DNA of 64,000 nucleotides from Aegilops tauschii subsp. strangulata. Taxonomy: Eukaryota; Streptophyta; Magnoliopsida; Poales; Poaceae. The stretch is taken from positions 321,311,294-321,375,293 of the forward strand of contig NC_053037.3 in assembly GCF_002575655.3 (NCBI RefSeq), given 5' to 3'. This document shows, piece by piece, positions 1 through 59,513 of the stretch (position 1 is its first letter; every line of letters starts with the position of its first letter). The translations under genes were made by a program, and so were the position numbers. The notes beneath the pieces were generated by a model. The model searched no databases. It worked only from the letters and a program-made list of their open reading frames with translations, and had not been told where the DNA came from.

Positions 1-2355
1 CTCGTCTGCAGCTGCTCGAGCTCGCGGCTACGCTCCATGGCCTCCAGGGCCAGCGCCTCCTCATGCTTTCGGACCTCCTCTTCCTCTGCGGGCATCCCCC
101 TCAGCGACGCAAAAGCGGCCCTACGCGCCTCCACTTGCTACTCAAGAGACGCGCTCCAGGCCTGGAGCTCCCACGCGCGCTACTCCGCAGCCTCGCGAGC
201 CTCTTCCAAGGCTCGTGAGCGGGCTTCATGGGAAACCTTGAGAGACGCCTCGGCCTTCGCGTTGTCAAGGTCAAGCTAATAGCGGCCGAGGTTGATGGCC
301 ACCTTCAGCTTGCGCCGCTCCTCCGCCAGCCGGAGACCTTCAGCCTCAAGACGTGAATCGACACTCGCGAGCTCTTCACCAAGTCAGCTCATCGCGTTCA
401 TCAGCTCATGGCGAACCACGCTCCGCCCGCGCTCAAGCTCGAACGCCTGGCCTTCTTCGTCCTCCACCTCGGGGGCTGCGGGCGGGGCGCCAAGCGGCAC
501 GCCACCCCTCGGCAGGGGGCTGGGGGCTAGCGCCACACCCGACACCAGCCCGTCCTCGCGAGAAGCCCAAGCCGGCTGGGGCTCGCTGCTCGAAGAGGAG
601 CCGAAGAACAAAGCCAACAAGTTGCCTTCAAAGACCATCGGAGGAGTCTTGGGCACGCCTGCCAAGCTCCACGCCAGACCAAGGGGGAGGAGTGACGAGG
701 CCGCAGGTTCAGCGCGCCAGGAAGGCAGGAGTGCCCCTTCATCCAACCCTGCTCCAGGGGCAACCAGCGGACTCGGAGCGCTCGAGGCCGACGGAAGAGT
801 TAAGGAAGAAGGAGGCCGTTTCTCAGGAGACTCAGCAGCCTCAGTGGAAGGAGCCCTGAAAGACTGGCGTTAGAAGAAGAAAGCAGCACATAGAGAGCCA
901 CAGTGGTACGATGCTTACACGTCGACGGCGATGTACTTCCTCCGCTTTAGCGGTCCAAAGATGCTGCTGCTTCTAGGGGATCCCTTCCTCTTGCGGAGCT
1001 CTTCGAAGTCCACACAAAGGCGACAGAAGCGCTGGACGTGACGGCCAGTGCGCAGCGGGGCCGAAGAAGAGCTCGGAAGAATATCTTCAGGGGTGCCCGG
1101 CTGCGGCGAACAGCCGGGCAGCGTTTCACCACAACCTCCCGAGGCTCCTGGAGCCTTGGCCTCGGGAGTCGCATACAGCGTCTCCTCAGCATCCGACGTC
1201 TCAGGAGGCGAGTGGCAGGCTCCTGAGGACGATGCCCCAGGATCACCACACAGCACGTGCTCCTCAGCACTCGAGCCGCCGGCCTCCGCCTAAGCTCGCC
1301 CGCCTGCACCGTCACTTGGGGCGAGCTCAGCATCAGGGGCAAGGAAGGGAACCACGATGACGGGGTTCTCACGAGGCCCCTCCAGGCCAATCGGCCGCGG
1401 CCCCCATTCATCAAAGAGAGGCATGTCCTTTACAAATTGATCCTTATTCTTGCAGTGGTACAACAAACAGTTCTTCCCAGGCAGTTCGGCCGGCAGAAAG
1501 ACACCCGTTAGGACCATGAGCATTGTTCGCCGCGTCCCGAGGAGGGGCCCGGACTCCTGAAACCTCATGTGGTCCGGGCTACTGAGCAAGGTCCACATTG
1601 GGTGAGAATGGCGCTGAAGCGGAGCGACCCAACGTTGGACGAATTCCTTCACCACCATCGGTGGAGTTACGCCGCGATCCTTCAACAACCTCAACCTGAG
1701 CCAGACGCGGGCAAGGTCGGGGCTTGCGAGCCGCTGATGGCTCCAGCCGGAGTTAGGAACAGCGGGCCCCGACGGAGCCTAAAGCAGAGGACTGAGCACA
1801 CCGGCATCGACGAACACCCATCGTGTCCGGAATTCACTCGTGGATGGAGGAAGCTCGAAAACGATCCCCTCGCCCACCGTCGCAGCCACGGCCTGGAAGC
1901 TCATGCACCCCGGGCATTGCTGAGGGTCGGCCAGATGCAATGATAAGAAATGACGGAGGAGATCCACCGAAGGAGCGATGCCCACCATGGCTTCGCACAC
2001 GAAGGCGAAGACAACAAGAAGAGTCATAGACTGAGGGTCAAGATGCAGCGTGTGGATCTGATAATGCTCAAGCACAGCATTGAAGAAGGCAGAGAAAGGA
2101 GGAATCAGGCCAGTCCAGAGGGCATCTATGAAGATTGGGACCTCGGTGGCCGTCTGAGCCGTGCGAGTGCGAGACGCGGGCCAAGCCACCGTCCCCCCCC
2201 CACTCATTGAAGCTAGAAGCAAGCATCGGGCGCACCTTGTCCATTGCCTCGTCGTTGAGCACCCGAGACCGGCCAAGCGCCGGTGCAAAGGACGGAGGCG
2301 CAGGTGGAAGAGACAGAGGAGTCTTCCCCTTCTCAGCTTGTTTCGGCGCCACGGC
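1..2355 (-). pseudogene. Antisense extra ORF of gypsy element XY (Transposase_28-type domain plus coiled coil), broken
   Basis: Read on the minus strand, one frame runs from about 2190 to the window edge through several stops. A Transposase_28-like domain (putative gypsy-type transposon domain) spans about 2110-1790, with the motifs FNAVLEHYQIH, FAFVCEAMVGIAPS and DLLRHFLSLHL. Downstream come FLPAELPGKN and LPLFDEWGP-type blocks (about 1560-1400), a basic patch KRRKY near 930, and a charged alpha-helical stretch (about 400-1) rich in E, A, R and L, coiled-coil in character. The start region is recognisable at 2352, but the codon is GTG where D has ATG (APKQAEKGK against APIRRFSATEKGK). A run of nine C at 2193-2201 shifts the frame. 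In-frame stops lie at 1779, 1290, 915 and 384 and further left. It is antisense to the inferred plus-strand gag-pol of XY, which lies left of the window. Antisense extra ORFs are known in Tat-lineage gypsy elements; their function is not established. Confidence 0.72.
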
Positions 2356-2584: not shown

Positions 2585-2607
2585 ATTTAAAGGCATCGTG
2601 GGTGAGT
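2585..2607. repeat. Filler DNA at the left border of element A
   Basis: Positions 2585-2602 repeat 2489-2506 exactly (18 bp, atttaaaggcatcgtggg), 96 bp apart. They are followed by tgagt and then the LTR start TGTCACATCC. The octamer gggtgagt at 2600-2607 also equals 12366-12373, just inside the 3' LTR of A. No TSD of A is present here. This looks like templated insertion during break repair. Confidence 0.7.
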
Positions 2608-5600
2608 TGTCACATCCTAGCTAGTTCATGCATTAGAGTGTTGCATCATGTTTACATTTCACAGAAACCTGAAATGGGGAATGCCAGAAACCCCCAGCAC
2701 CCCCCCTGGAACAACTAGGGTTTACTAAAATTCTTTTCAATGAACCTGAAATGCCCTCCATAAATGTTCACCACCTTTGGTCTTGGCTAAAACCTTTGCC
2801 AAAAATGGTTTCATATTTTTGGAGGCCATCTTGGATTTTTGCACAAGTCATAAGTACTTGCATTTGGGCATTTTAAATGCTATAAATATTTTCAAATGCC
2901 CAAATAATTTTGAAAGTATTTTTAGGCTGTTGGGAATAATCTCAAAGGTGCCTCAGAATATTTTCAGGATTTTTCCAAATGAAATAGTATTTTTACTATT
3001 TCAAAACACAGAACGGAAATAAATAAAAAGAGAAAGAAACAGAAGGCAGAGAAACTTACCTGGCAGCCCACCTGGCGGCCCAGCACTGTGCTGGCCCACG
3101 CCAGTCAACTGCCTGCTCTCGCCAGAGCAGGCAGAGAGGTGACGCCGGCGAGCGTGAGCTCGCCACGGCGCCAGCTGCTTGCCGCCCTCGCCGCGGATGA
3201 GCTGGCCGACCTCCCTCGACGCGCCCCGAGCCTCTGGACACCGTCATTCTCCCCCATCGCCTCTCCCTCGCTTTCTCCCCACCATGGCCGACGCCGCCGC
3301 AGACACCTCACCGGAGTAGCCGCGCCCACCGTCGACCTCGCGCCGTTCTAGCGTGTCCTACAGCACCGCCGTCGCCCGCTCCTTCGAGCAAGCCGAGCCC
3401 CGAGCGCTCAGTTGCCCTGAAGCTCCGTCACCGACCTCGCCTTCGCCGCTCCCCGTCGGAGATCCCCTCCGCCGTCGCCACTGCAACAGCTCACCTCCGA
3501 CCTCGCCGCCTGCTCCGTTGCAACCGCCGTGAGCATGGCCACCTTCCCATCCTCTCCCCTCTCTCTCTCGAGCTCTGTAGCCACCGCACGAAGCTCACCC
3601 GCACGCGCCGCCGCACGAGCTCGTCGCCGACGAGGCTCCGGCCATCCAACGGCCGCACCACCGTAGCCATTAGCTTCACCGCAACGCCAGGAACCCGTAG
3701 CACCCTCGCACGTTCCTCGCCGTGCTCTCTAGCTACGGTTTCAACCACGCCCGTACCCCGGCAGCCGCACGGCTCGTCGCCGGCGTCGATTCCGGCGACC
3801 CCGAGCCCCACTACCACCACCAGTCGACGCGGTTCGCCCTCAGCTACCCGTAGGTACTCTCCGCCGTCCTTTTGGTCGCCGGAGGGGGGATCCCGCACTC
3901 CATCGCCGCGTCTGGACGTCGCCGGCGGCTAAACGCCGGCGAGTCAACGTGGTTTGACCACAGGTTGACCCCCCCAGGGTCACTGACAAGTGGGGCCGCC
4001 TGCTAATTAATCTGAGTCAGAGAGTTAAACTAATCCTAATTAACTAATTACCTAACAGTGACACTGACACAGGGGACCCACGCGTCAGGTTTGACCTGGA
4101 CGACCCCGTTGACCTACTGACATCACACTGACGTCAGGCTGACGCAGTAAAGCATTACTGGAATTATTCTTATATTGGAAATTCCAGAAATTATCACAAA
4201 CTTCAAAAAATCATAGAAAATAATCTATAGCTCAGAATGAAAAGATTTATATATGAAAAATGATCAGAAAAATCCATTCTATCCATCTGTACTGGTTTCA
4301 TGCATGATTAAGCAAGTTAACCTACTGTTTTATACAGAACAAGATAAAGCACTAATATGGGCCATTTATGAACTTGGAATTTGAATCTTTGATTCAAATT
4401 AGTCCAAACCCATCTGGTCTTAGTTGCATTAGCCCAATACATCCATTTTGCCATGTCTCATGCATGCATCATATTGTTGCACTTGCTTGGCGTTGATTGT
4501 GCTTCGATGTGTTCATTGTGGTAGGTCCTGCCTCCGAGGATATTCACGGGTATCCAACTGAAGGGCAGTATCCCACCACCACTCCGTCAGGCAAGCAACC
4601 ATTGATCATTTCGATACAAACCCATCTTCTCGCTTCTGCTCTCGTTTACTGCATTAAGACAACGCGATTCAAACTGCTGCGTGTGTTGCGGTAGTTGAAC
4701 CCACTTTCCTCTGCATGACCTGTCATTGCCACAGTAACTAGATGAAACCCACTAGCATGAGTAGGAGTTGATTGAGCCATGTTGTGTTCCTACAATGCTA
4801 TGCTTGCTACGCTTAGAGTTGTGTCAGGTCTGGCTCATCAGGGTGATGAACTAGAGTGAAAGTGTGTGTGTCGATAATGAGAGTGAAGTGTTGAATACGA
4901 TTTGGTAAAGGTATCGATGGGAGGCCATGTAGGAGTACATGGTTGGTTGTTTCATTGAGACCGCCCCTAAGAACTGAGATCTGTATGCGTGATTTAAGAT
5001 TCAGCTACTACCACACTTTGGGCCCAAAACCAATGGACCCCCTCGGCTTCTTATTCACCCTTGTCCTCTGTCCAGGAGTTGCACGTAGTTTCTGGTGTTT
5101 GTAGTAAGCTGGAGGCCATGGACAGCGCTGACCAAGGGGTGGGCTGTGATGCGGTAGGCTCATGGCACGGTGTACCGAGTCGCCCGTTTGGTGCCCGGGA
5201 ACCCTGCACACATCGTTCGGGGCCGTATGTGGAAACCTCGGCCGGACTCCCTGCGGATGGAACCTGAATAGGCGATAAACCTGGACTAGAGACTCGAGTG
5301 TTTAGGTAGGCTGTGGCCGACACCCACGTTGGGCTTCCGCTTGAAGGTTGCCGAGTACACGTCGTGTAGCGACGATAAGTGGTGAGAGCGTGTGTGACGA
5401 AGTACACCCCTGCAGGGTATAAAACTATTCGAATAGCCGCGTCCGCGGTAAAGGACTACTTGGTCGCTTATGCAGTTCATAGACAAGTAAATGGATACTA
5501 CTAAAAGCCTCAAGATAAGTGTGAGTACTGCGGATGGCCCTCTCGTGGGATGACGAGGGAGGATCCACGGTGGAGTATTGAGATGGTGATTAGTGGACTC

Positions 5601-6671
5601 GTGTGCGAAAACTATTTCACAAGTGGTGTACCGTAGGATAGCTTAGCCAAGAGTCAAAGCTGGCTTGCTGCAATAACCCCACTACCTTCTTGAGAATGAA
5701 CTTGTATAGTAGGATCTTTTGTAAGACTTGCTGAGTACCTTTGTACTCATGTTGCTTTAATTACTGTTTTCAGACGACAACACCGCCCCTTCTGATGGGT
5801 TCTATGTAGAACTCGACGACGACGAGTGACTTGCCACCCAGGTGGTGATCTAGGCTTGTGAAGGGCCTATGTAGATAGACAGGCTTCGTCAAGCCTTCTT
5901 TCTTTCTAGTGTCTGTACCCAGACAGTTTGCTTCCGCATGTGCTTGTATGATTGTATGACTTGAGTGTCGGGTCATGTGACCCCTATCTGTATGAACAAG
6001 TTATGTAAGGCTCTCCGGAGCCCTTTAAATAAAGTACTTGGAGTTGTAGAGTTTTGTTGTGATGCCATGTTGTATTTGCACATATCGAGCATATTGTGTG
6101 TATGTTTGAAATGCTTGGTATGTTTGGGATCCGACAATCTAGTTGTTTATCCTTGGCAGCCTCTCTTATGGGGAAATGTAGACTAGTGCCTCCTTGAGCC
6201 ATAGTAGTCCGCTACAGCCCGGTTCACCGGAGTCCTGCTAGCCCAGCACTACTGCTCTGGACACTTGACTGGCCGGCATGTGAGTCATATCGTTCCTGTG
6301 TCTGTCCCTTCGGGAAATGTCACGCGGTGACATCTGGAGTCCTGCCTAGCCTGCTACAGCCCGGGTTCCCGGAGTCCTGTTAGCCCAGTGCTACAGCCCG
6401 GATTCACACGCTGCTGACCGACACGTTCGATGTTGATTCATGTATGCATGTCCCCATACGTTAGTGCCGCGTTGGGTTCACGACTAGCCATGTCGGCCCG
6501 GGTTCTCTGTCATATGGATGCTAGCGACATTGTCATATACGTGAGCCAAAAGGCGCAAACGGTCCCGGGCCATGGTAAGGCGACACCCGTGGGAGTACCG
6601 TGCGTGAGGCCGCAATGTGATATGAGGTGTTACAGGCTAGATCGGTGTGACTTGGAATCGGGGTCCTGACA
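2608..6671 (+). repeat. 5' LTR of element A
   Basis: Matches 12374-16437 along its full length at a constant offset of 9766 bp. It includes a GC-rich block (about 3080-3920), AT-rich blocks, a TATA-type core at 5418-5424 and an AATAAA at 6027-6032. Short open frames inside occur in both copies, lack family motifs and are not genes. Confidence 0.92.
5404..5424 (+). promoter_or_regulatory. LTR core promoter candidate of A
   Basis: The 20-mer acacccctgcagggtataaa contains TATAAAA from 5418. The same 20-mer occurs in the 3' LTR of A (from about 15170) and in the diverged LTR of element B. A related version lies in S near 50877. Position and conservation suggest the TATA box and nearby initiator elements. 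Confidence 0.6.
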
Positions 6672-6675
6672 GCGT

Positions 6676-6690
6676 TGGCATCAGAGCCGG
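6676..6690 (+). other. Primer binding site of A
   Basis: TGGCATCAGAGCCGG lies four bases after the 5' LTR. It resembles the canonical TGGTATCAGAGC site complementary to the 3' end of initiator tRNA-Met, with a T-to-C change. The leader 6691-7110 shows no coding signal. Confidence 0.8.
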
Positions 6691-7110
6691 ACTGCCTGTA
6701 GGTGCGATAAGCCAGACTGGTCGATGTCGAGTCTAGAAATGCTTTAGTTATACGTAGGGGAATTGATTGTGGGAGGGAACGTAAGGTGCTTTTACTCCTT
6801 TACCTCATGCCCTCTGATCTGAGTCATACTCTTCTCATTCCACGTGGGTTAAGGACTAGGCTCTCTCCTCTCTATCAGGTTCACGTGTTACTAATCCGTA
6901 GTAACTTATAGGATTGTTGGTTCCATGCTTCAGTTCAGTTTCTACTACCCTGGTATGTTGTCGGTTGAACCAGAACCTTGACATGATGTTGTTGAGTGGT
7001 ATTGCAAAACTGTTGCGAATGTCTCAAATCCTTTTCCGAGCATTTACAGCGGTTATGCTGTCCGAATTCTCCTAGAAATACTAATGCCTTGCATTATTTC
7101 GTGCTTTTAG

Positions 7111-7884
7111 ATGGCCACCCGTTCCCAGAACCAAGTGGTTCGTCTGACCCGGTGCATCGGCGTACCTGGTCACACGGCCATGTTGGTCCGAGTGATGGTT
7201 GAGACAGGCTATCGTTGGTATCCCGAGTATACCGTCGAGGAGCAGTTTCGAGACTTTAATCAAAGCCAATATCTTTGCACAGTCAGGATTTACCCATCCT
7301 ATCCTGGAGCCACTGAACCCCTCCATTGCTCTTATGGACTTGGGGTTACTATCGAGATGTCTGTGCAGGACGCAGTTTACTCAATGATGACTATCATGCG
7401 AGCCAGAACTGCTTTGCTTCAGAACACCGACTACCGCTACATGCCAACAGCACTCCCTGGGGCACAGGGGTACTATCAGGCTACTTACTGTGATTCTACC
7501 CATGAGGACTCACTACTCCGCACCACCACCGAGATGCTTGAGGACAAGGACCGTGAGAACCGTGCCTTGCTAATGGAGCTCTTTAATGCTTGTGCTGATC
7601 ACTGGGCCACACTGACACGGTTTGCACCTGCCGTGCAAGCTGGGTTCATGGACATGAGGGACTTATACCCCGTGCGATCTAGTCTGCCAGAATGTATGGA
7701 ATGGTGTGATGTAGGATGCATCACCCCTCCTCGTGGACCCCGTCTGCCACCGTTTGTTGGACCAAGGCCACACCCGAGTCCCTATGGACCACAAGCTCCA
7801 CAAGACCGACTGTTTCCGGATGATCATGTTCAGCTCCCAGGACATGGTGGTGACTTCTATGAAGATTACTACGGAGACGTCTGA
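7111..7884 (+). CDS. Extra ORF upstream of gag in element A, unknown function
   Basis: An uninterrupted 257-codon ORF between the PBS leader and gag. It starts at the first ATG of the frame (MATRSQNQVV) and ends TGA at 7882. I do not recognise a catalytic motif, signal peptide or membrane segment. The N-terminal 110 residues look globular. Residues 130-190 are helical and charged. The C-terminus (about 200-257) is rich in Pro, Gly, Arg, Asp and Tyr (PPRGPRLPPF, GGDFYEDYYGDV), as in disordered or RNA-binding tails. Survival as a long open frame while gag and pol around it are broken may reflect recent insertion. Gag lies 21-130 bp downstream in another frame with a hairpin between, so in active relatives this may be the N-terminal part of Gag or a separately translated product. 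I cannot decide which. Confidence 0.7.
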   Translation: MATRSQNQVVRLTRCIGVPGHTAMLVRVMVETGYRWYPEYTVEEQFRDFNQSQYLCTVRIYPSYPGATEPLHCSYGLGVTIEMSVQDAVYSMMTIMRARTALLQNTDYRYMPTALPGAQGYYQATYCDSTHEDSLLRTTTEMLEDKDRENRALLMELFNACADHWATLTRFAPAVQAGFMDMRDLYPVRSSLPECMEWCDVGCITPPRGPRLPPFVGPRPHPSPYGPQAPQDRLFPDDHVQLPGHGGDFYEDYYGDV

Positions 7885-7905
7885 GTTGGTAGTAGTTCGG
7901 CTAGT

Positions 7906-7931
7906 GTTGCGGGTATTGTAACACCCGCAAC
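7906..7931. other. Perfect hairpin between ORF1 and gag of A
   Basis: A 9-bp stem, gttgcgggt at 7906-7914 pairing with acccgcaac at 7923-7931, with an 8-nt loop. It begins 22 nt after the ORF1 stop, where the gag frame opens (7905) with no ATG until 8013. Position suggests a role in translation coupling; this is inference. Confidence 0.6.
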
Positions 7932-8012
7932 AACCCTGCCGTCCAGGAGCAGGGTGAAGCCAATGCAGCCAGGGCGGAGAACCTGCCCCAACCGCCTTCA
8001 CTGGCCGAAGTT

Positions 8013-8960
8013 ATGCTGGAGGCAGAAAGAAACAAGCGTGAGACTAACCGCTTGCTAGAGCGAATTGAGCAGAATACTGCACGTCACCAGAGGAACGACC
8101 TGGTGTCCATCAATGACTTTATCAAGTTGTACCCACCGAAGTTCAACCATTCCGTCGAGCCCCTTGATGCGGATGATTGGCTTCGCAGCATCACCCATAA
8201 GCTACGTTCTGCCAACGTAGCCGAAGCTGATAAGGTTACCTACGCTGCCTATCACCTTGAAGGCCCTGCTAGCCTTTGGTGGGAGAACTTTGAGGCTATG
8301 CGCCCAGCTGGCCAAATCACTACTTGGGCTGAGTTCAGTGAGGCTTTCCGTGAGCATCACATTCTGGAGGGTCTCATAGATCATAAGCGGGAAGAATTCT
8401 GCAACTTCACCCAAGGCAGACTGACCATGGATGCATACAGCCGTGAGTTTGGAAATCTAGCACGCTATGCTCCTGAAGAGGTATCCACCGACGCCAAGAA
8501 GCAGGCAAGGTTCCGCAAGGGACTTAGCCTTGAGCTTCGCCGTGATCTTCGTCTGCATGAGTGCACCTCTTTCCAGAAGTTGGTCAATAAGGCCATCAGT
8601 GCCGAGACAGGACAGACTGACTATGACGCTACACGCAAGAACTCTCGCGATTTTGGTTCCTCATCCGGCTCCGGATCCCAGAAGCGCCGGGTCTGGATTC
8701 CAAATACTGCTCTGCCACCCAGGTTCACTCCGAGGCCATCCTTCGAGGCGCCTCGCCCCAACTAGCAGCATGCACCGCCCAAGGTTTATGGTGGCCCCGC
8801 TGCTCATGCCGCTCCACGCCCCAATATTGTGACATGCTTCAAGTGTGGAGAAACGGGTCACTATTTGCGCGAGTGCCCCCAAAACAACCTCAACCAACCT
8901 GGACAGTCCGTTGGCCGTGGTAAGCCAGCAGGAAAGACTTACTACGCCAAGCCAGCCACC
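8013..8960 (+). pseudogene. gag: Gag of element A, one in-frame stop
   Basis: Structural capsid-nucleocapsid protein that would package the element's RNA. The frame is open from 7905; the first ATG is 8013. A retrotransposon-gag capsid domain covers roughly 8090-8620 (DADDWLRSITHKL, ASLWWENFEA, FREHHILEGLIDHKREEF, RYAPEEVSTD). The CCHC zinc knuckle [14 protein letters not shown] lies at 8835-8876. A TAG at 8763-8765 cuts the frame between capsid and zinc knuckle. The next codon is CAG, so a CAG-to-TAG change is likely. The frame otherwise continues directly into protease, so gag and pol are one polyprotein as in Tekay elements. Length and layout are normal for the clade. Confidence 0.88.
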
Positions 8961-11900
8961 ACTGCACGTGGCCATGTCAACTATGTTTCAGCTGAAGAAA
9001 CTCATGAGGATCCCAACGTCGTCCTTGGTACGCTCCTTGTTAATTGCCATCCGGCAACTGTTCTTTTCGATACTGGAGCATCTCATTCATTTATCTCCGA
9101 GAGCTATGCTCGATTGCACAACACCACATTTTGTGACATGCCCACTTCCATGGTAATCCAAACCCCTGGTACTAAGTGGCAAACCTCTAAGATAAGCCAT
9201 GGAAATGAAATTCTTGTTGACAGATTGGTCTTCCTTGCGTCACTAATAGCTCTCAAGTCCTCGGACATAAACATCATCTTGGGTATGGACTGGATGTCAG
9301 CACATTATGCTAAGATTGATTGCTCTACTAGAACTGTTCAACTCACCCATCCGTCGGGCAAGACAGTCAATGTTTTGACCCGAGTGTCTAAGCGTCAGCT
9401 CTACTCATTAAATGTCAACCCTCTTCCAGACCTCGAAGATGTGCCGGTAGTCCGTGACTTCCCGGATGTCTTCCCTGAAGAACTGCCGGGTATTCCACCT
9501 GACAGGGATGTCGAGTTCGTGATAGACCTTGTTCCAGGAACCGTCCCAATCTCTAGAAGACCCTATAAGATGGCACCCCTAGAGCTAGCCGAGCTTAAGA
9601 AACAACTCGATGAGTCCTTGAAAAAGGGTTTCATCCGTCCTAGTTCTTCTCCGTGGGCTTGCCCCGTCCTCTTCGTCAAGAAGAAGGATGGTACGAATCG
9701 GATGGTTGTAGATTACCGACCCGTCAACCTAGTCACAATCAAGAACAAGTATCCGCTTCCCAGGATCAACGACCTGTATGATCAGCTCGCTGGATCCTCA
9801 GTCTTCTCTAAGATGGATTTGAGGTTGGGCTACCATCAAATCAAAATCAAGAACGGGGACATTCCTAAAACGGCCTTTGTTACTCGTTATGGCCAATACG
9901 AGTATACTGTCATGTCCTTCGGGTTAACCAATGCTCCAGCAACCTTTTCTCGATTAATGAACTCAATCTTCATGGAGTATTTGGATAAATTCGTCGTAGT
10001 ATACCTTGATGATATACTCATCTACTCCAAGAACGAGGCAGAACATGCCGAGCATTTAAGGCTAGTACTGATGAAACTTCGAGAGCATCGCCTTTATGCT
10101 AAATTCTCTAAGTGTGAATTCTGGTTGCCAGAAGTGACCTACCTAGGCCACGTGATCTCTGGTAAGGGTATTGCTGTTAATCCCGAGCGAGTTCAAGCCA
10201 TCCTTGACTGGACTCCCCCTGAAACGGTCAAGCAAGTCCGGAGTTTCCTTGGCTTAGCGAGCTACTGTCGCCGCTTCGTCGAGAATTTCTCCAAGGTTGC
10301 TAAACCTCTAACCGAACTCCTCAAGAAAGATAAAAAGTTCGAGTGGACCCCACAGTGCGAGTTCAGCTTTCAGGAACTGAAAAGACGCCTGACATCTGCC
10401 CCCGTACTCGTACCACCAGATTTTTCTAAGGACTTTGTTATCTATTGCGACGCCTCGCGACAAGGACTAGGTTGCATACTCATGCAAGATCGTCATGTGA
10501 TTGCCTACGCTTCCCGACAGTTGCGTCCACATGAGGATAATTATCCCACACATGATCTAGAGCTTGCAGCCGTAGTCCATGGACTCAAAACATGGCGACA
10601 TTACCTTCTCGGTAACCGTTGCGAGATTTTCACCGACCACCAGAGTCTGAAATACATCTTCACCCAGCCGGATTTGAATCTCAGGCAAAGACGTTGGGTC
10701 GAGTTGATCTCAGACTACGACTTAGGAATTACTTACACCCCGGGCAAAGCCAACGCTCATGGCTGATGCGCTAAGCCGTAAATCCTATTGTAACAACTTG
10801 ATGTTACAACAAAGTCAACCACTTCTCCACGAGGAATTCTGTAAGCTTAACCTTCACATTGCTCCTCAAGGATTTCTATCCACCCTGGTGGCGAAACCAA
10901 TCCTTACGGATCAGATCATCAAAGCTCAGAAGGTAGATCCGGGAATATCCCGTATTAAGAGAAACATCAAGAAAGGAGTCGCGGATTGTTTCTCCGTTGA
11001 TGACCAAGGTGTTGTGTTCTTTGGAGACCGCCTAGTGGTTCCCAAGGTATGCAACCTGAGGCGATTGATCCTTAAGGAAGCTCATGAATCTCCTCTCACC
11101 ATTCATCCCGGTAGTACTAAAATGTATCAAGACCTACGCCAGAGGTTTTGGTGGACTAGGATGAAGAGAGAAATTGCTCAATACATTGCTAATTGCGACG
11201 TTTGCCGTCGTGTTAAAGCAGAGCATCAACGGCCTGCTGGCACCCTTCAGCCTCTGGCTATTCCTGAATGGAAATGGGATAAAATCGGTATGGATTTCAT
11301 TACCGGGTTTCCCAGGACCAAGAGAGGGAATAATGCTATCTTCGTTGTTGTCGATCGCCTTTCCAAAGTAGCCCACTTCCTACCAGTTCGTGAGAGTATA
11401 ACCGCTAGCCAGCTAGCAGACTTGTACATCTCCCGAATAGTGTCTCTTCATGGTGTTCCATTGGAAATTAACTCAGACCGTGGAAGTCTCTTCACCTCTC
11501 GATTTTGGGAAAGTTTCCAAAATGCTATGGGAACTCGTCTCTCTTTTAGCACCGCCTTTCACCCTCAATCAAGTGGTCAGGTAGAACGAGTTAATCAAAT
11601 TCTGGAGGATATGCTCCGAGCTTCTGTCATCTCGTTTGGCATGGATTGGGAGAAATGCCTTCCATTCGCCGAGTTCGCTTATAACAATAGTTACCAAGCT
11701 AGCTTGGGCAAAGCCCCTTCCGAGGTTCTCTATGGACGAAAATGTCGAACGCCTCTTAACTGGTCAGAAACCGGGGAAAGACAACTCTTTGGCCCGGATA
11801 TGATTCAGGAAGCAGAAGAGCAGGTTCGCATTATTCGTGAGAAATTGAAAACAGCCCAATCTCGCCAAAAGAGCCATTATGATCGCAAACATAAGGCTAT

Positions 11901-12312
11901 GACTTTTGAGGTTGACGAGAAGGCTTACCTTCGGGTGACTCCTTTAAAGGGAACCCATCGATTCGGTATCAAAGGCAAATTGGCTCCTCGCTACATTGGA
12001 CCCTTTCGCACTCTTGCCAAGCGAGGAGAAGTTGCCTACCAATTGGAACTACCTCCGCATCTTTCCAAGGTTCATGACGTCTTCCATGTTTCCCAACTCA
12101 GGCGTTGCTTCTCGGATCCTATCCGTGGAGTGGACCACGAAACGCTTGATCTCCAAGATAATCTCACATACCGGGAGTATCCCATTCGAATCCTTGATCA
12201 AGCCGAGCGTACCACTCGACGCCAAAACATCAAGTTTCTCAAAGTTCAATGGTCACACCATTCCGAGAAAGAAGCTACTTGGGAAAGGGAGGATCGTCTT
12301 CGACTTGAGTAA
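8961..12312 (+). pseudogene. pol: Pol of element A: protease, RT, RNase H, integrase, chromodomain; one frameshift
   Basis: Polyprotein that would copy and insert the element. The aspartic protease has DTGAS at 9069. RT runs about 9560-10150 with YLDD at 10002-10013 and the [11 protein letters not shown] block. RNase H begins at IYCDAS near 10440 with later FTDHQSLKY. Integrase has a zinc-binding H/C region (about 11090-11210, CDVC) and the catalytic triad in GMDFITGF (about 11290), NSDRGSLF (about 11475) and GQVERVNQ (about 11585). A C-terminal chromodomain (about 12165-12310, aromatic and acidic EATWEREDRL) marks a chromovirus and is thought to guide insertion to heterochromatin. RNase H and integrase are in different frames: an extra base near 10756 (gccaacgctcatggct) puts a TGA at 10764. 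All catalytic residues I looked for are present. Confidence 0.93.
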
Positions 12313-12345
12313 CCCACCTTCTTCCCAACGGATCCTAAATCTCGG

Positions 12346-12373
12346 GACGAGATTCTTTTGAGTGGGGGTGAGT
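12346..12373 (+). other. Polypurine tract region of A
   Basis: ATCTCGGGACGAGAT followed by a purine-rich gagtgggggtgagt immediately before the 3' LTR. The same tctcgggacgagat block precedes the 3' LTR of element B. It would prime plus-strand DNA synthesis. Confidence 0.7.
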
Positions 12374-15300
12374 TGTCACATCCTAGCTAGTTCATGCATT
12401 AGAGTGTTGCATCATGTTTACATTTCACAGAAACCTGAAATGGGGAATGCCAGAAACCCCCAGCACCCCCCCTGGAACAACTAGGGTTTACTAAAATTCT
12501 TTTCAATGAACCTGAAATGCCCTCCATAAATGTTCACCACCTTTGGTCTTGGCTAAAACCTCTGCCAAAAATGGTTTCATATTTTTGGAGGCCATCTTGG
12601 ATTTTTGCACAAGTCATAAGTACTTGCATTTGGGCATTTTAAATGCTATAAATATTTTCAAATGCCCAAATAATTTTGAAAGTATTTTTAGGCTGTTGGG
12701 AATAATCTCAAAGGTGCCTCAGAATATTTTCAGGATTTTTCCAAATGAAATAGTATTTTTACTATTTCAAAACACAGAACAGAAATAAATAAAAAGAGAA
12801 AGAAACAGAAGGCAGAGAAACTTACCTGGCAGCCCACCTGGCGGCCCAGCACTGTGCTGGCCCGCGCCAGTCAGCTGCCTGCTCTCGCCAGAGCAGGCAG
12901 AGAGGTGACGCCGGCGAGCGTGAGCTCGCCACGGCGCCAGCTGCTTGCCGCCCTCGCCGCGGATGAGTTGGCCGACCTACCTCGACGCGCCCCGAGCCTC
13001 TGGACACCGTCATTCTCCCCCATCGCCTCTCCCTCGCTTTCTCCCCACCATGGCCGACGCCGCCGCAGACACCTCACCGGAGTAGCCGCGCCCACCGTCG
13101 ACCTCGCGCCGTTCCAGCGTGTCCTACAGCACCGCCGTCGCCCGCTCCTTCGAGCAAGCCGAGCCCCGAGCGCTCGGTTGCCCGGAAGCTCCGTCACCGA
13201 CCTCGCCTTCGCCGCTCCTCGTCGGAGATCCCCTCCGCCGTCGCCACTGCAGCAGCTCGCCTCAGACCTCGCCGCCTGCTCCGTCGCAACCGCCGTGAGC
13301 ATGGCCACCTTCCCATCCTCTCCTCTCTCTCTCTCGAGCTCTGTAGCCACCGCACGAAGCTCACCCGCACGCGCCGCCGCACGAGCTCGTCGCCGACGAG
13401 GCTCCGGCCATCCAACGGCCGCACCACCGTAGCCATTAGCTTCACCGCAACGCCAGGAACCCGTAGCACCCTTGCACGTTCCTCGCCGTGCTCTCTAGCT
13501 ACGGTTTCAACCACGCCCGTACCCCGGCAGCCGCACGGCTCGTCGCCGGCGTCGATTCCGGCGACCCCGAGCCCCACTACCACCACCAGTCGACGCGGTT
13601 CGCCCTCAGCTACCCGTAGGTACTCTCCGCCGTCCTTTTGGTCGCCGAAGGGGGGATCCCGCACTCCACCGCCGCGTCTGGACGTCGCCGGCGGCTAAAC
13701 GCCGGCGAGTCAACGTGGTTTGACCACAGGTTGACCCCCCCAGGGTCACTGACAAGTGGGGCCGCCTGCTAATTAATCTGAGTCAGAGAGTTAAACTAAT
13801 CCTAATTAACTAATTACCTAACAGTGACACTGACACAGGGGACCCACGCGTCAGGTTTGACCTGGACGACCCCGTTGACCTGCTGACATCACACTGACGT
13901 CAGGCTGACGCAGTAAAGCATTACTGGAATTATTCTTATATTGGAAATTCCAGAAATTATCACAAACTTCAAAAAATCATAGAAAATAATCTATAGCTCA
14001 GAATGAAAAGATTTATATATGAAAAATGATCAGAAAAATCCATTCTATCCATCTGTACTAGTTTCATGCATGATTAAGCAAGTTAACCTACTGTTTTATA
14101 CAGAACAAGATAAAGCACTAATATGGGCCATTTATGAACTTGGAATTTGAATCTTTGATTCAAATTAGTCCAAACCCATCTGGTCTTAGTTGCATTAGCC
14201 CAATACATCCATTTTGCCATGTCTCATGCATGCATCATATTGTTGCACTTGCTTGGCGTTGATTGTGCTTCGATGTGTTCATTGTGGTAGGTCCTGCCTC
14301 CGAGGATATTCACGGGTATCCAACTGAAGGGCAGTATCCCACCACCACTCCGTCAGGCAAGCAACCATTGATCATTTCAATACAAACCCATCTTCTCGCT
14401 TCTGCTCTCGTTTACTGCATTAAGACAACGCGATTCAAACTACTGCGTGTGTTGCGGTAGTTGAACCCACTTTCCTCTGCATGACCTGTCATTGCCACAG
14501 TAACTAGATGAAACCCACTAGCATGAGTAGGAGTTGATTGAACCATGTTGTGTTCCTACAATGCTATGCTTGCTACGCTTACAGTTGTGTCAGGTCTGGC
14601 TCATCAGGGTGATGAACTAGAGTGAAAGTGTGTGTGTCGATAATGAGAGTGAAGTGTTGAATACGATTTGGTAAAGGTATCGATGGGAGGCCATGTAGGA
14701 GTACATGGTGGGTTGTTTCATTGAGACCGTCCCTAAGAACTGAGATCTGTATGCGTGATTTAAGATTCAGCTACTACCACACATTGGGCCCGAAACCAAT
14801 GGACCCCCTCGGCTTCTTATTCACCCTTGTCCTCTGTCCAGGAGTTGCACGTAGTTTCTGGTGTTTGTAGTAAGCTGGAGGCCGTGGACAACGCTGACCA
14901 AGGGGTGGGCTGTGATGCAGTAGGCTCGTGGCACGGTGTACCGAGTCGCCCGTTTGGTGTCCGGGAACCCTGCACACATCGTTCGGGGCCGTATGTGGAA
15001 ACCTCGGCCGGACTCCCTGCGGATGGAACCTGAATAGGCGATAAACCTGGACTAGAGACTCGAGTGTTTAGGTAGGCTGTGGCTGACACCCACGTTGGGC
15101 TTCCGCTTGAAGGTTGCCGAGTACACGTCGTGTAGCGACGATAAGTGGTGAGAGCGTGTGTGACGAAGTACACCCCTGCAGGGTATAAAACTATTCGAAT
15201 AGCCGCGTCCGCGGTAAAGGACTACTTGGTCGCTTATGCAGTTCATAGACAAGTAAATGGATACTACTAAAAGCCTCAAGATAAGTGTGAGTACCGCGGA

Positions 15301-16437
15301 TGGCCCTCTCGTGGGATGACGAGGGAGGATCCACGGTGGAGTATTGAGATGGTGATTAGTGGACTCGTGTGCGAAAACTATTTCACAAGTGGTGTACCGT
15401 AGGATAGCTTAGCCAAGAGTCAAAGCTGGCTTGCTGCAATAACCCCACTACCTTCTTGAGAATGAACATGTATAGTAGGATCTGTTGTAAGACTTGCTGA
15501 GTACCTTTGTACTCATGTTGCTTTAATTACTGTTTTCAGACGACAACACCGCCCCTTCTGATGGGTTCTACGTAGAACTCGACAACGACGAGTGACTTGC
15601 CACCCAGGTGGTGATCTAGGCTTGTGAAGGGCCTATGTAGATAGACAGGCTTCGTCAAGCCTTCTTTCTTTCTAGTGTTTGTACCCAGACAGTTTGCTTC
15701 CGCATGTGCTTGTATGATTGTATGACTTGAGTGTCGGGTCATGTGACCCCTATCTGTATGAACAAGTTATGTAAGGCTCTCCGGAGCCCTTTAAATAAAG
15801 TACTTGGAGTTGTAGAGTTTTGTTGTGATGCCATGTTGTATTTGCACATATCGAGCATATTGTGTGTATGTTTGAAATGCTTGGTATGTGTGGGATCCGA
15901 CAATCTAGTTGTTTATCCTTGGCAGCCTCTCTTATGGGGAAATGTAGACTAGTGCCTCCTTGAGCCATAGTAGTCCGCTACAGCCCGGTTCACCAGAGTC
16001 CTGCTAGCCCAGCACTACTGCTCTGGACACTTGACTGGCCGGCATGTGAGTCATATCGTTTCTGTGTCTGTCCCTTTGGGAAATGTCACGCGGTGACATC
16101 TGGAGTCCTGCCTAGCCTGCTACAGCCCGGGTTCCCGGAGTCCTGTTAGCCCAGTGCTACAGCCCGGATTCACACGCTGCTGACCGACACGTTCGATGTT
16201 GATTCATGTATGCCTGTCCCCATACGTTAGTGCCGCTTTGGGTTCACGACTAGCCATGTCGGCCCGGGTTCTCTGTCATATGGATGCTAGCGACATTATC
16301 ATATACGTGAGCCAAAAGGCGCAAACGGTCCCGGGCCATGGTAAGGCGACACCCGTGGGAGTACCGTGCGTGAGGCCGCAATGTGATATGAGGTGTTACA
16401 GGCTAGATCGGTGTGACTTGGAATCGGGGTCTTGACA
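12374..16437 (+). repeat. 3' LTR of element A
   Basis: Same length as the 5' copy with about 48 single-base differences and no indels that I see. The right border tgaca is followed by tgcaa, the likely TSD copy and the resumption of the XY LTR. Confidence 0.92.
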
Positions 16438-16786
16438 TGCAACGAGACCAAGACCGGAGGACGGCAAGGCGGAGGTCATCGTGGAGCCCAAGACGGCTTC
16501 ACCCCAGAGCTTTTCGTAGGCGAAGACCGCTTTTGTCAGGATAGCTTGTACTAGCTGCCCCCCTTCAAATTCGCCCGCCGTTGTTGGCTCCCTTCCCGCT
16601 CGTTATTTGGGAAGAGGACCAGGGCCTATATAAGTAGAGCTAGCCACCACAGTAGAGGCATCGAATCCCCACGCCACAAATTCATACGCACAAGAACACC
16701 TCAACCTCAGGAGGCTGTTCTTCCCTTGTACTGTTCATCATCAGCCCAAGAGGCAATCCACCACCACCACACTGGAGTAGGGTATT
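16438..16786 (+). repeat. 3' LTR of element XY, part 1
   Basis: Matches the reverse complement of D 39430-39767 (tgcaacgagaccaag, ttgtcaggata, gggaagaggaccagggcct). A TATA-type TATATAAG at 16627-16634 corresponds to the D LTR box at 39573-39580. The first 360 bp or so of the LTR are missing at its left. It is interrupted at 16786 by element B and resumes at 33474. Confidence 0.82.
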
Positions 16787-33468: not shown

Positions 33469-33473
33469 GTATT

Positions 33474-33647
33474 ACACCACAACGGTGGCCCGAACCAGTA
33501 TAAACCCCATGTCTCTCTGTGTTGCAAGTTCGTCAAGTTCATCCACGAGATCATAGCGAGCTAGAGCGTAGATCGGTAGGAGGGAGAGACTTCGCGCGCA
33601 CCCTAGTGTTCGAACCTCAAGGGTTTGCCGGAACCCCACATCCGACA
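33474..33647 (+). repeat. 3' LTR of element XY, part 2
   Basis: Continues from 16786 once B is removed (agtagggtatt + acaccacaacgg). It corresponds to the reverse complement of D 39240-39410 and ends CATCCGACA. It is followed by atgct (33648-33652), the probable right TSD of XY in the third ORF of C. Confidence 0.82.
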
Positions 33648-35340
33648 ATGCTCGATTTGAGGAAGGACTTCATCATCTTCAACATTGTCTTCACGACCAA
33701 TGTCTTCAGCTGTGATGGGGTCAACAACTAGCACTTATTCATTTTCAGGAGCCTCTGTGAATGCAGGCTCGTGGATCACAAGTGGACGCTCTTGGTTGGT
33801 GGAGGCAGGACGAGCAACTGAAATGGGCTCGACAACAAGAGGCTCAGAGGCCGCAACACGCTCTTTCTTTGAAGACTTCTTCAATTTCTTCTTTGATGGT
33901 GGATCATCAGAAGCATTCCTATGCTTGCGCTTCTTGGCTTCGGCTTCAGCTGCCCTTGTCTTCTTCAGTTTTGAAGCTACTGTGGGGACGTTAGGCTTCG
34001 AGACTGTCATGCTGGCAGGGAAGACAATGCGAGGTGCTTCCTGCCTTGATGCTTCAGCTTGGGCCATAGGAGGCTTCTTCTTCTGTTTGGCAACCAACTT
34101 GGGGTCAATGCCAGGATGCCCAAGAGCCTTTAGCTTCACCACGTTTCTTGTGAAACTGTTCTTTGAGCTCATGCAGCGTTTCCTTGAAGCTTTGTACATC
34201 AGCCACGCTGAGCTTGGCCATGTTCTTCTTAAAGTGAGCCTTTTCATAATCAATTTTGTTCTTCAGCTCAACAATCTTCTGGGCCAAGGCCAACTCATTA
34301 GCAATGGCTCCGTGGAAGGTGACGCTGATGTCAACTGGCAGCTAAAGATCATCAATGCTGAGGCTGGGATTTTCAAACCACTCGTCAAGGAAGTTATTCG
34401 AAATATCCACGTCAAAGAGGGGCGGATCGTTGAAGATCTCCGCCTCTTGCTTGGTCTTGATCAGTAGCTCAAGGGCATCATCACCAAGATCTTCGTCGCT
34501 TGATAGATCAATGGTTTCATCTTCGTTCCGCAGAACGGCAGCTGGAGTAAGTTCATGCCCAGAAATCTTCATGGGCTTCTTCTTCTTGAGCTTCTCCGTC
34601 TTCTTGGAGACAGGAGAAAGATCTTCAGGTTGCACACTGAGTTCAGGAGGTGCAGTTGCCAATGGCTTCACATGCGAAGCTTTTGGAGTGACAGAGGGCT
34701 TTGAAGCCTTTGATTTCTTCTGCTTCTGCGGCTTAGGTGGAGCTGGCGCTTCATCAAAATCTGCGTCATCAGCTGATTGCTCCACGGTGGCCCTCTGTGC
34801 GGCGATATGAGAGAGAAGGCCATCAAAGTTGGCGAAGAGGCCGATGACATTGGGATTGGCATCGCGTGTGCCATTAGCCCTTGGAGCAGATGGGCCAGGG
34901 TTGAAGTTGAGGCCCAGATCCTTCTTGTTCTTCACAGCAGAATCTCTTGCAAACTGATAATTGCGCTTGAAGAGATTGTCATCACGACACCACAACATAG
35001 ATGATGGGTTGGCATCTTCTGGCTTTGGTCCTCGGACCATACATGGGTAGAAGCCTTGAGCAATGGCTTCAGACTTGGACTTGGGCTGCAGATTTCTGTA
35101 TAGAATATCTCCCCATGGGCGCTTGATTGCGTTCTTTTCAGCATATTCAGCAGTCACAAATCTGTATTTGAACCATTCTTTTGCCCAATATCTACTAATC
35201 CATTGGATTCGGGTCTTGCGCTGATTGTAATTCTCTTCAGGATCTGTCTTGTACATTTCAAAGAGATCTGGGGGCAAGTCCTTGGCTGTATCCCCACGGC
35301 GCTACCTGCCGCCCTTTCTAGCAGATTTTTCAGATGCCAT
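33648..35340 (-). pseudogene. Third ORF of element C, downstream of pol, basic nuclear-type protein, broken
   Basis: SIRE-lineage elements carry an ORF after pol, often labelled env-like. Here it starts at ATG 35340 (MASEKSARKGG). The N-terminal third (about 35280-34900) has DLFEMYKTDPE, RIQWISRYWAKEWFKYRF and YRNLQPKSKSEAIAQGFYPC. The middle is acidic and Lys/Pro-rich. A coiled-coil-like segment (ALAQKIVELKNKIDYEK) lies at about 34290-34160. The C-terminal part is strongly basic (KKRKHR, KKKLKKSSKK), resembling nuclear localisation signals. I see no signal peptide or transmembrane helix, which argues against a classical envelope. In-frame TAG at 35302 and 34342, TAA at 33735 and a frameshift near 34140 inactivate it. 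XY truncates it at 33648. Function unknown. Confidence 0.75.
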
Positions 35341-39234: not shown

Positions 39235-39239
39235 GTAAA

Positions 39240-40128
39240 TGTCGGATTTCGGGTTCCGGCGAAACCCTTGAGGTTCGAACACTGGGGTGCGCACGAAGAT
39301 CTCTCCTCTCCCAAGCTCGCACCCTCCATGATCTCACGGACTAGCTCGCCGAACCCAAAGAACACGAAGACACAAGATTTATACTAGTTCGGGTCACCGT
39401 TGTGGTGTAATACCCTACTCTAGTGTGGTGGTGGTGGATTGCCTCTCGGGCTGAGGATGAACAATACAAGGGAAGAACAACCTCCTGAGGAGAGGTGTTC
39501 TCGTGCTTGGTGAGCTAGTGTGCGGGTGAGGATTTCTGAAGATGAGTTGCCTCCTACGGTGATGACTAGTCATATTTATAGAGGCCCTGGTCCTCTTCCC
39601 AAACATTGAGTGGGAAGGGATCCCACAACGGCCAAGTTTGAAGGGGGACAGCTAGTACAGCTTATCCTGACAAAATTAGTCTTCGTCTGCCAAAGGCTCT
39701 GGTGGTGACGCTGTCTTGGACTCCACGATGACCTCCGTCCTGCCGTCCTACTAGTCTTGGTCTCGTTGCACCGATAGGGAAACCTTTGCCTGATGCCTCG
39801 GTACTCTTCGCCTGCACTTGCCTCCTTAGCACCATAGAGGAAACGAGGACACTGTGCGCGCTGGCGCCCGCATGGCTTGGTCGTCATGGCTTACGTCACG
39901 GGAAACCTCGCGAGGTACCCCCTTGCCTTGATCTCTCCGCCCCTCACGAGCCAGCCTGGTGAGGCCGCTCTTGAGCAGGTCTTGTGTCGTCCGCCTAGCG
40001 AGGCTTGGCCCCTCGCGAGGGTCTTGAGTGCTTGTTGGTGAAGATGGGCCGTACGGGCCCGCTTGTGGAGCCACGTCGTGGGCTGCAGGCAGGCAATTCT
40101 GGGGACCCCCGTTCCCAGAACGCCGACA
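39240..40128 (-). repeat. 3' LTR of element D (complete, 889 bp)
   Basis: On the minus strand TGTCGGCGTTCTGGG to AAATCCGACA. The LTR promoter TATAAATA is at 39573-39580 (minus). The adjoining purine-rich cttgggcccgggggctac (complement of 40129-40146) is the PPT. Its R-U5 part matches the XY LTR pieces. Confidence 0.88.
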
Positions 40129-40371
40129 GTAGCCCCCGGGCCCAAGGCGCGCTCGGACTTGGCTTTGAGGCGAAGCCAAAGGGCAAGTGCGGAGCGCCGC
40201 GGGCCCCAACAGCCTGCGGCCTTGGTCGACGCGTGGTGGTTGATTGGACGTGGGTGTCTCCGCTTCCCCACGCTGCCTCGGCAACTGCCCGAGTTGACGA
40301 GTCCCTGCTGCATGCAAAAAGGGTTATCATTACCTGCGATCGTGGGGGCCCACGGTTGGCCTCCCTTGGGT

Positions 40372-40379
40372 TATAAATA
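40372..40379 (+). promoter_or_regulatory. TATA box of the antisense ORF of D
   Basis: TATAAATA in ggttataaataaggaggcgg, on the strand opposite to gag-pol, 92 bp upstream of the ATG at 40464. The site faces inward from the 3' LTR. Confidence 0.6.
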
Positions 40380-40463
40380 AGGAGGCGGGCAGAGCCCCCG
40401 TCATCCATCTCTTCCTGTTCCGCTCGCTTATCCTCCCTGGCTCCATTGCTAGCAGCGGCATCC

Positions 40464-41324
40464 ATGGCGCCTATTCGGAGGTTTTCGGCCACAGAGAAAG
40501 GAAAAGCTCCCCGTGACGAGCTCGGGCCGCTTCCACAAAAGAAGAGGCCGAGCCACCGCCGCGACGTGGTCCTGAGGCCGAAGGTGACCAGGCCTTGGTA
40601 CGAGAGACCTCCTCCCGGGTACCCGCTGCCTTTGTATGCCCAAGCTGAGGGCTCCGGAGGAAGAGGCGACGAGCGCCGCCACCCACGCTGGGGCCGCAGC
40701 CGCCGCGCTGGGGCGACGCACACTGTCGCCCAAGGAATCCACGCCACGGACTCCTCGCGTGAGCTCGTGGTGCGGGCGGCGATGCCTCCGCGCACTTGGA
40801 TCCGCTTCCCTCAGTTCTTCTCCGCTGAGATGCTGTCGAGGGGCCCTCTGGAGCTGTGGCCGCGGCACGCCGACTGCAACGCCCTGGCGACCGGAGCGGA
40901 AGTTGAAGTCGTCTCCTCGGGCATGATCTTCATGACTCGAGGCCGGGGCGAGGTCGCCCGAATTTGCCGTGCAGAAGGTGCCCTTGCGATCCACTTCTAG
41001 TACGACGGCGCCTCCACAATGTTCTTCAAGGTCTTCGACGCGGAAGGCCGCCCCTTGGAGTGCTGCCCCGGGCGAGGCCGTCAGGACCGCCCCGCCATCG
41101 GTTTTTCCAGCAGTGGCAGCAACGTTTGGGAGTCCAGCGACTCTCCCGAGCTCTACGAGACTCCGGAGACAAGCGACGACAGCTATGTGCCCCCGAGCTT
41201 TCGCGCGCCCGGAGCAAGGCTACAGCGTCCGGCCGACGCCGTCGCTAATCTGGATGGGATTGGCGCCGGCCTCCCGTGGTCCACTGTAGATGATGGCGTC
41301 GGCCGCGCTGGTGCATGTAGATAG
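40464..41324 (+). pseudogene. Antisense extra ORF of element D with B3-like domain, one stop
   Basis: Starts in good context (catccATGGcg) with MAPIRRFSATEKGKAP, which resembles the start of the XY antisense ORF. Residues 20-110 are basic and low-complexity. From about 40790 a B3-like pattern appears: RFPQFFSAEML, GPLELWPRHADC, GMIFMTRGRGEVARICRAEG, then YDGASTMFFKVFDAEGRPLE after the stop. This resembles the end of plant REM-type B3 DNA-binding domains (a GD-lvF-yDG-F-v-iFd pattern). A TAG at 40998-41000 splits the domain. The tail (to 41324) is acidic, Ser/Pro-rich (SSDSPELYETPETSDDS). ATG 40446 six codons upstream is an alternative start. If expressed, the product would be a small DNA-binding or regulatory protein encoded antisense to gag-pol. 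B3 assignment is from pattern only. Confidence 0.62.
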
Positions 41325-42539
41325 GGCTCCTTGAATTTCCTTTCTTTTGTTCCCTACTAGGAATCGAAAATAGCCACGCGGGGGTGCGTAAAGGGCCTGT
41401 AATGTCTTTGGTCGATATCATCCTTATTATGAAATTGTGCGGGTGCGTGTCCTATTTCAGCTCAGTCTCCCCTTTCTATCCTCGCGACGGCTTGGTGCTC
41501 TACGCTGACAGGTCCCGGTCCTCTGGCAGGCTGCAGCCGTCGCTGGTATGCCAGGTCGCGATGCCGTGGTCAAGGCCAGGAGGTGAGCGGCCCGAGGTCC
41601 AGTAAGAGCTCCTGAGTCACGATGCTTAGGAGGTCCCCTTTAGCGTGCAAGTGGCCACCGAAGGTAAGAAAGGGAGGCGACGTTGCCGCAACAGAGCTGC
41701 AGCAAGTGAGGATCCCGTGTCATAGTGGTGGGTGGATTCCGAGCGCGAACTTATCTTGGTAGTCTGGAGTAGTTTCCTTTTGTTGCGCCAACTCGTGCGT
41801 GGCGGTCGTGGCGTAGCTAGGTTAGGGCCGTGCGTGCTTCCCCCTCTTCCTCATGCTCTCCTTAGTGCTCTACGTCCTCAGGTCCCGGGCCTCGAGCGAG
41901 CTCAGCCGCCACTGGTATGCCAGGTCACGATGTCGTGGTCAAGGCCAGGGGGTGAGGGCCGGAGAGCCAGTAGGAGCTCGTGAGTCGCGATGCTCAGGAG
42001 CCCCCCTTTTAACGCGCAAGCGAATCACATGAGAGAAGAGGGAGCCCGCGGTACCGCCCCCTGTTGTCCTCGGGAGCTTCCTGCAAGTCAACACGAGGAG
42101 AGGCGTAGATTTCCATTATGAGTGCCGGCCGGCCACTGGTCGCTCCGTAAGGGATTGAAGGCACTGAGGGCCTGGTGAGGTGACGCGCGCGGGGCGTGCA
42201 GCGGGCCAGAGCTCGACCGCTCAGATTTTTCGACATTGCAAGGACGGACCCATGCACAAGCATCGTGCCGGCGTGAGCAGCTCCCGTGGTAGGTGTCAGT
42301 CAAGCAAGTGTCAGCCATAGATAGATCATGCATGGAAAGAGAACTGACTTAGGTAAATGCACGAGCGATAGATGCCACCGGGTCGGACCCGAGCGGCTTG
42401 GGGATGGTGCAGCCCTTGGGGCGCCCCCAGCAAAGTAAGCGAAAGACATAAAAGGATACGTGCCGCAGGGACGGGCCCACGCGGCCTGGGAATGATGCAG
42501 CCCGAGGGGCGCTCCCAGCTAAATGAACTTGGAAAATGT
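41325..42539 (+). repeat. Spacer of D with internal degenerate repeats
   Basis: No convincing gene. Two direct repeats of about 145 bp lie at 41499-41641 and 41867-42009 (shared ctggtatgccaggtc, cgtggtcaaggccagg, cgatgct). A second pair of about 67 bp lies at 42373-42438 and 42462-42528 (gatggtgcagccc / gatgatgcagccc, ggggcgc). Confidence 0.6.
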
Positions 42540-45613: not shown

Positions 45614-45618
45614 GTAAA

Positions 45619-49071: not shown

Positions 49072-49079
49072 TATAAGTA
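49072..49079 (+). promoter_or_regulatory. TATA box of the antisense ORF of E
   Basis: TATAAGTA in ggcctataagtaggggg, 118 bp before the ATG at 49197 and antisense to gag-pol. The region 48615-49071 is GC-rich with no ORF of note. Confidence 0.55.
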
Positions 49080-58298: not shown

Positions 58299-58335
58299 CC
58301 AGAACAGGTCTCCGGACGACGGTGCACCTCGCCCC

Positions 58336-59508: not shown

Positions 59509-59513
59509 GACAT

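Follow-up and report, generated by a model that had tools for sequence, protein, structure and literature searches.

Two decayed retrotransposons, here named XY and D, were analysed in a 64,000-nucleotide stretch of the Aegilops tauschii subsp. strangulata genome (GCF_002575655.3, contig NC_053037.3, positions 321,311,294 to 321,375,293; the whole stretch is referred to as the window). Both belong, as non-autonomous elements, to one Ty3/gypsy group, probably of the Retand type. In both, an antisense gene adjoins the 3' long terminal repeat (LTR): that of XY encodes a Transposase_28 domain and that of D a B3-fold domain. A pol-bearing relative, the C4 element, combined an XY-like 3' LTR with a B3-type gene. 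These results indicate that the antisense slot is held by different DNA-binding-type genes, and the single mosaic indicates an exchange that takes the promoter region along. Taken as a whole, the exchange of a promoter-plus-gene block in this slot between partner Ty3/gypsy elements is the likely explanation.

Shared ends and separate antisense genes of XY and D

The LTRs of XY and D were related at 81%. The primer-binding site (PBS; TTTGGCGCGCCAGGTAGGGG), the LTR and the spacer were common to both elements, and the antisense genes were unrelated. The homology ended about 150 bp into the spacer, counted from the 3' LTR; the TATA-like box of D (40372-40379) and both ATGs lie beyond this point. 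The XY copy of the window was excluded from the 49-pair XY/D test because the LTR-proximal part of its spacer is missing. The position of the break implies that promoter and start travel with the gene. The initial annotation had proposed a cassette position in which the antisense gene is exchanged behind a shared LTR, spacer, promoter and start. The shared LTR and the first part of the spacer were confirmed, together with a short protein motif, MAP...EKGK, the only one shared by the two antisense starts; the remaining spacer and the start differed at the DNA level, and the retention of promoter and start had to be abandoned. Its expectation of both gene types in one genome was borne out, as different antisense genes were detected in the same slot of related elements.

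When the B3-type and Transposase_28-type proteins were compared with hhalign, 24 columns of the N-terminal motif only were aligned (probability 2.4%, E 0.019). Homology between the two domains was rejected on this result.

The Transposase_28 gene of XY

The antisense gene of XY lies on the minus strand; its 5' part was located at 1-2352 and the remainder is outside the window. The window copy is decayed, with GTG at the start position, a frameshift and stops. The Transposase_28 domain (PF04195) of the initial annotation was recovered at 1935-2135 (minus strand, residues 74-140, E 1.5e-18); its predicted model was helical and of low confidence (mean predicted local distance difference test score 43). 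A GT-AG intron of 63 nt was predicted at 856-918 (minus strand) from splice signals in the copies: GTAAG...TTCAG was present in all eight XY copies, with a length of 63 nt in seven and 64 nt in one, and excision gave a continuous frame in both copies checked. Match positions at locus L023 (about 5308-9480), to the left of the window, suggest that some 4 kb of additional DNA is inserted in the XY antisense gene.

The gene was found at no fewer than 40 scored places in the genome with 86-93% identity, self excluded. The ratio of nonsynonymous to synonymous substitutions (dN/dS) of exon 1 was 0.46 (28 pairs, 8 copies), compared with 0.74 and 0.95 in shifted-frame controls. The corresponding values for the D antisense gene were 0.48 (66 pairs, 12 copies) and 0.89 and 1.00. 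Both antisense genes are thus under purifying selection in the sampled copies.

The B3-fold gene of D

The antisense gene of D was located at 40464-41324 (plus strand), with a TAG at 40998-41000 in the window copy. The frames of other D copies ended sooner, at 260-271 codons in 4 of 12, and the last part of the gene in the window copy probably lies outside the native frame. All 11 other D copies carried 1-2 inserted bases relative to the window copy, and the projected copies were stripped of such insertions; the dN/dS is therefore unreliable for the last part of the gene, and the B3 domain lies before that part. At least 40 scored places in the genome carried the gene with 81-89% identity, self excluded.

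A B3 domain is a seven-stranded pseudobarrel with two helices. The model of a relative, P0006, contained 7 strands and 2 helices within residues 101-192, and B3 folds headed the match list of the structure search with this model (residues 95-197). Mapped from P0006, the domain corresponds to 40752-41051 (plus strand) of the window. In sequence searches, the gathering score of PF02362 (B3) was missed, the best score being 19.9 bits vs 30.1 (C4 element), and D itself gave no match. Searches of D against PDB sequences returned no useful match, and a piece of the C4 element matched 1yel at E 0.1. PF04195 was absent from D and from its scanned relatives. No parent among host genes was found among the 120 of 398 matches listed in the profile search (A2), which were mostly unnamed fragments. 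The B3-like assignment of the initial annotation was thus upheld by the predicted fold of a relative, and the Pfam score stayed below threshold. On this modelled structure D encodes a cryptic B3-fold domain, for which DNA binding is predicted. With the Pfam score in its favour and the match of the predicted fold against it, a chance likeness to B3 in a decayed GC-rich open reading frame (ORF) is highly improbable.

The mosaic C4 element

The C4 element, named after its contig C4, spans from position 2725 of locus L016 to position 1321 of L042. An XY copy (L015/L016) and an LTR are followed by the PBS, gag, reverse transcriptase, RNase H, integrase, the antisense B3-type ORF, the spacer and the 3' LTR. 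The pol region is decayed and distributed over several frames (RVT_1, E 9.9e-26; RNase H, E 7.3e-11; rve, E 1.3e-9). The antisense ORF begins MAPRRKFSAAEKGKA. Neither of its two domain matches reached the cutoff: one covers half of a B3 domain (PF02362, E 7.2e-4) and the other, which fell narrowly short, an AT-hook-like motif (E 0.0046). This B3 gene was detected at 40 or more scored genome places with 89-92% identity, self excluded.

In its 3' LTR, the C4 element carried the XY state at 51 of 58 diagnostic sites, the D state at 5 and another state at 2 (XY state at 46 of 53 in another tally), and this LTR grouped with three XY LTRs, two of them from the tandem XY copy, with a support of 0.991. 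In the spacer, columns 1-157 were XY-like at all seven sites, which are located in columns 29-104. Columns 158-200 were D-like at 13 of 14 sites and columns 201-320 at 43 of 55 (the rest of the latter being 6 XY-like, 5 other and 1 gap). The pattern of sites places the switch between columns 104 and 160. The distance from the LTR edge to the ATG was 332 bp vs 334 bp in D. On the other side of the gene, the segment L016:8294-8518, downstream of the C4 integrase, recurred in all eight XY copies at 80-87%. By the shared LTR and spacer and this post-integrase segment, XY and the C4 element match on both flanks of the antisense gene and not in the gene. The first 30 bp of the C4 leader were common to the XY and D families, and the gag-protease DNA was 65% like that of D.

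From L015 position 6226 to L042 position 1321, the arrangement is a tandem of LTR, XY, LTR, pol-bearing element and LTR with a common middle LTR, as LTR recombination leaves.

Proposed exchange and alternative explanations

In this explanation, a pol-bearing partner has the LTR ends, the PBS and the 3' spacer in common with XY and D. Between pol and the 3' LTR, each element holds one antisense gene with a putative promoter of its own. The XY gene has a predicted intron and codes for a protein with Transposase_28 and coiled-coil parts; the gene of D, like that of the pol-bearing partner, codes for a small, putatively DNA-binding B3-fold protein. One junction of the exchange would fall within the conserved spacer of about 150 bp or at its end, and the other downstream of integrase. 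The likeliest route may be a template switch between co-packaged partner RNAs during minus-strand synthesis, just after the 3' LTR and the spacer have been copied; a crossover just inside the 3' LTR would fall in the region reached soon after the first strand transfer. The antisense proteins are probably nuclear, DNA-binding accessory regulators of the LTR. The cassette exchange of the initial annotation is accordingly retained in part: different genes occupy one slot and one mosaic joins XY-type ends to a B3 gene, and the exchanged unit includes the promoter and the start. That the slot is a modular regulator locus, where partners trade promoter-plus-gene cassettes for different DNA-binding proteins, one of them B3-derived, is a tentative extension, somewhat short of an even chance.

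Several observations weigh against the proposed exchange. A single sequenced junction underlies the mosaic, and its XY-like spacer part comprises seven sites only, none of which lies between columns 105 and 159. Past the junction, one site out of 14 departed from the D type, being XY-like, and so did 12 out of 55, of which 6 were XY-like. Because the C4 element is in tandem with an XY copy and has one LTR in common with it, conversion of its ends at that place is conceivable. The LTRs of XY and D formed separate groups in the sample, which indicates that exchange is not rampant. Exon 1 of XY was open in none of the eight copies, which weighs on present-day expression.

The main rival to template switching is DNA-level LTR recombination, because the C4 element and its XY neighbour form a tandem with one LTR in common. 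By unequal crossover or conversion, the XY LTR and spacer could have been placed onto a B3-type element, so that the ends and not the genes were exchanged; the common middle LTR is what such recombination leaves. However, the post-integrase segment is also common to XY and the C4 element, so the sharing exceeds the ends, and the C4 3' LTR was only 92.6% like the middle LTR, so the conversion is not a fresh one. This alternative is unlikely, though it deserves serious weight.

A quite unlikely explanation is that XY and D are two sister families, each of which gained its antisense gene once, long ago, with no ongoing exchange. The separate LTR groups agree with it, as do the 12 of 12 D loci that had mainly D-type LTR sites where readable (L032 with 11 sites only; L035 with 8 of 58 XY-like). 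The grouping of the C4 LTR with XY LTRs, combined with a B3-type gene, disagrees with it.

A single ancestor with both genes, from which XY and D arose by complementary deletions, is very improbable: the D-type B3 gene and D-type LTR at L031 (1-1500), joined tail to tail with inverted XY-family sequence including the Transposase_28 gene end, could be cited for it, but the inverted orientation of this join points to a rearrangement (or possibly another recombinant), scanned full copies carry one gene each, and each gene abuts the spacer with its own upstream region, so that serial deletion would need a second junction at the same place. No protein was common to the lists of relatives (91 B3-type; best 120 of 134 Transposase_28-type; candidates of 0.55-1.75 times the query length). 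The case that the initial annotation had named as contradicting it, both domains in one ORF, was seen neither in these lists nor in the scanned loci. Of those loci, only L016 and the window contained both gene types, and in each the two belonged to different elements.

Comparison with known elements

Antisense Transposase_28 genes are already known (PMC11963269, PMC7264820, PMC6317226). In the Retand lineage of Ty3/gypsy elements, the available part of the published survey describes an antisense ORF between pol and the 3' LTR, with Transposase_28 in 61 of 63 clusters and 2 of 63 without it, Smc annotations in some clusters, LTRs near 950 bp in one rye cluster pair, and recently active defective clusters (Vicient 2025, PMC11963269). 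XY fits this description with its antisense Transposase_28 ORF next to the 3' LTR; D does not, as D and the C4 element carry the B3-type gene, and a B3 domain is not mentioned in the same part of that survey. Because 61 of the published clusters carry Transposase_28, the B3 gene is probably the newcomer in the slot.

The XY and D genes have the same position and orientation as the aORF-3R antisense genes of Grande, RIRE2, Retand and PvRetro13, for which a nuclear accessory role is suggested (Vicient and Casacuberta 2020, PMC7264820). The review, in its accessible sections, states no clear similarities of these genes to other database proteins, whereas here the slot holds a B3-fold gene, with a fold known from plant transcription factors. 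The plant B3 domains of VRN1, At1g16640, RAV1, VAL1 and ARF have the same predicted fold as P0006 residues 95-197; the D-type domain differs from them by a sequence identity of 5-15%, the missed Pfam cutoff and the retrotransposon setting. Dasheng, reportedly described by Jiang and colleagues in 2002, is said to be a non-autonomous rice element with RIRE2 as its putative autonomous partner. A non-autonomous element and a pol-bearing partner are likewise found here, but the partners differ in the antisense gene.

Neither an antisense B3 gene nor such a gene exchange was reported in the listed titles and abstract openings of mainly open-access literature; three of the listed papers mention a 'B3 domain' (PMC13175896, PMC9289625, PMC7602945). 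The occupancy of the antisense slot by different DNA-binding-type genes is a real variant, unreported as far as searched. Two papers, in the sections available, leave the origin and role of plant gypsy antisense genes open and give no similarity to genes outside transposable elements (PMC11963269, PMC7264820). A B3 fold in the slot offers a recognisable DNA-binding fold, for which the LTR itself is a target that can be tested. If partner elements swap genes naturally, they would provide matched pairs with the same LTR and different regulators. If the slot is modular, non-autonomous elements could change the accessory regulator serving a shared LTR.

Structure of the elements in the window

D (39240-45613, minus strand) is flanked by a target site duplication (TSD) GTAAA (39235-39239 / 45614-45618) and lies, in opposite orientation to XY, in a copia-like polyprotein read by eye. 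Its features as an LTR retrotransposon are the paired LTRs and the 5-bp TSD, with PBS and gag taken from the family copy L036. The 3' LTR (39240-40129, minus strand) has 890 bp (TGTCGG...CCGACA), and the truncated 5' LTR was located at 45284-45613 (minus strand) by sequence comparison. The spacer and promoter region covers 40130-40463, of which the first 150 bp or so align with XY and the rest is D-specific. The gag and protease-like region (43150-45283, minus strand) was assigned from L036 (Retrotrans_gag, E 9.3e-20); the window copy itself had no Pfam match there. D has no complete pol, and a reverse transcriptase remnant was read by eye near 42519-43313. The spanned family copies (L036, L040) were 7.3-7.4 kb, and L036 contained gag and a protease-like region with no complete pol. 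A direct repeat of about 160 bp (41491-41651 / 41861-42020, 82%) downstream of the D antisense gene was present in other D copies as well.

XY begins before window position 1, and its gag-pol side lies beyond the window. Its segments are 1-2599, 16438-16786 and 33469-33647, the last two being the middle and last parts of the 3' LTR (plus strand), assigned by sequence comparison and by their position after a nested element with TSD GTATT, respectively. The conserved spacer piece adjoining the 3' LTR was located at 2495-2583, its LTR-proximal side being lost at a nested insertion. The first interruption is a gypsy element (2600-16437; identified by eye from ORFs) with 98.8% identical LTRs and without a matching 5-bp duplication (edges 2584-2600 / 16438-16442). 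Compared with D, about 420 bp of XY LTR and spacer are gone at its left edge, which suggests a deletion there. The second is an element with 4-kb LTRs (TSD at 16782-16786 / 33469-33473). From LTR to LTR, 5 of 7 fetched XY-family copies were 7.2-7.3 kb and L009 was 6.9 kb; the 5' LTR of L011 was incomplete within the fetched stretch. No pol was seen in the two XY-family copies with listed ORFs, and no reverse transcriptase or integrase match was obtained in the scanned pieces (three of L011 for XY, three of L036 for D). No usable reverse transcriptase was found in XY or D, and both lack the complete gag-pol of an autonomous element. Five LTR pairs were 94-96% identical, corresponding to an estimated age of roughly 1.5-2.3 million years at a substitution rate of 1.3e-8. 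Just past the end of XY (33735-35301, minus strand), there are two more long ORFs with no Pfam match.

A third element (47461-59509) is pol-bearing, with gag, RVT_1 and rve on the minus strand and LTRs of about 1.15 kb (96%), and carries an antisense Transposase_28 ORF at 49280-49672 (plus strand, E 3.5e-18). The antisense genes of the window are thus two of the Transposase_28 type and one of the B3 type.
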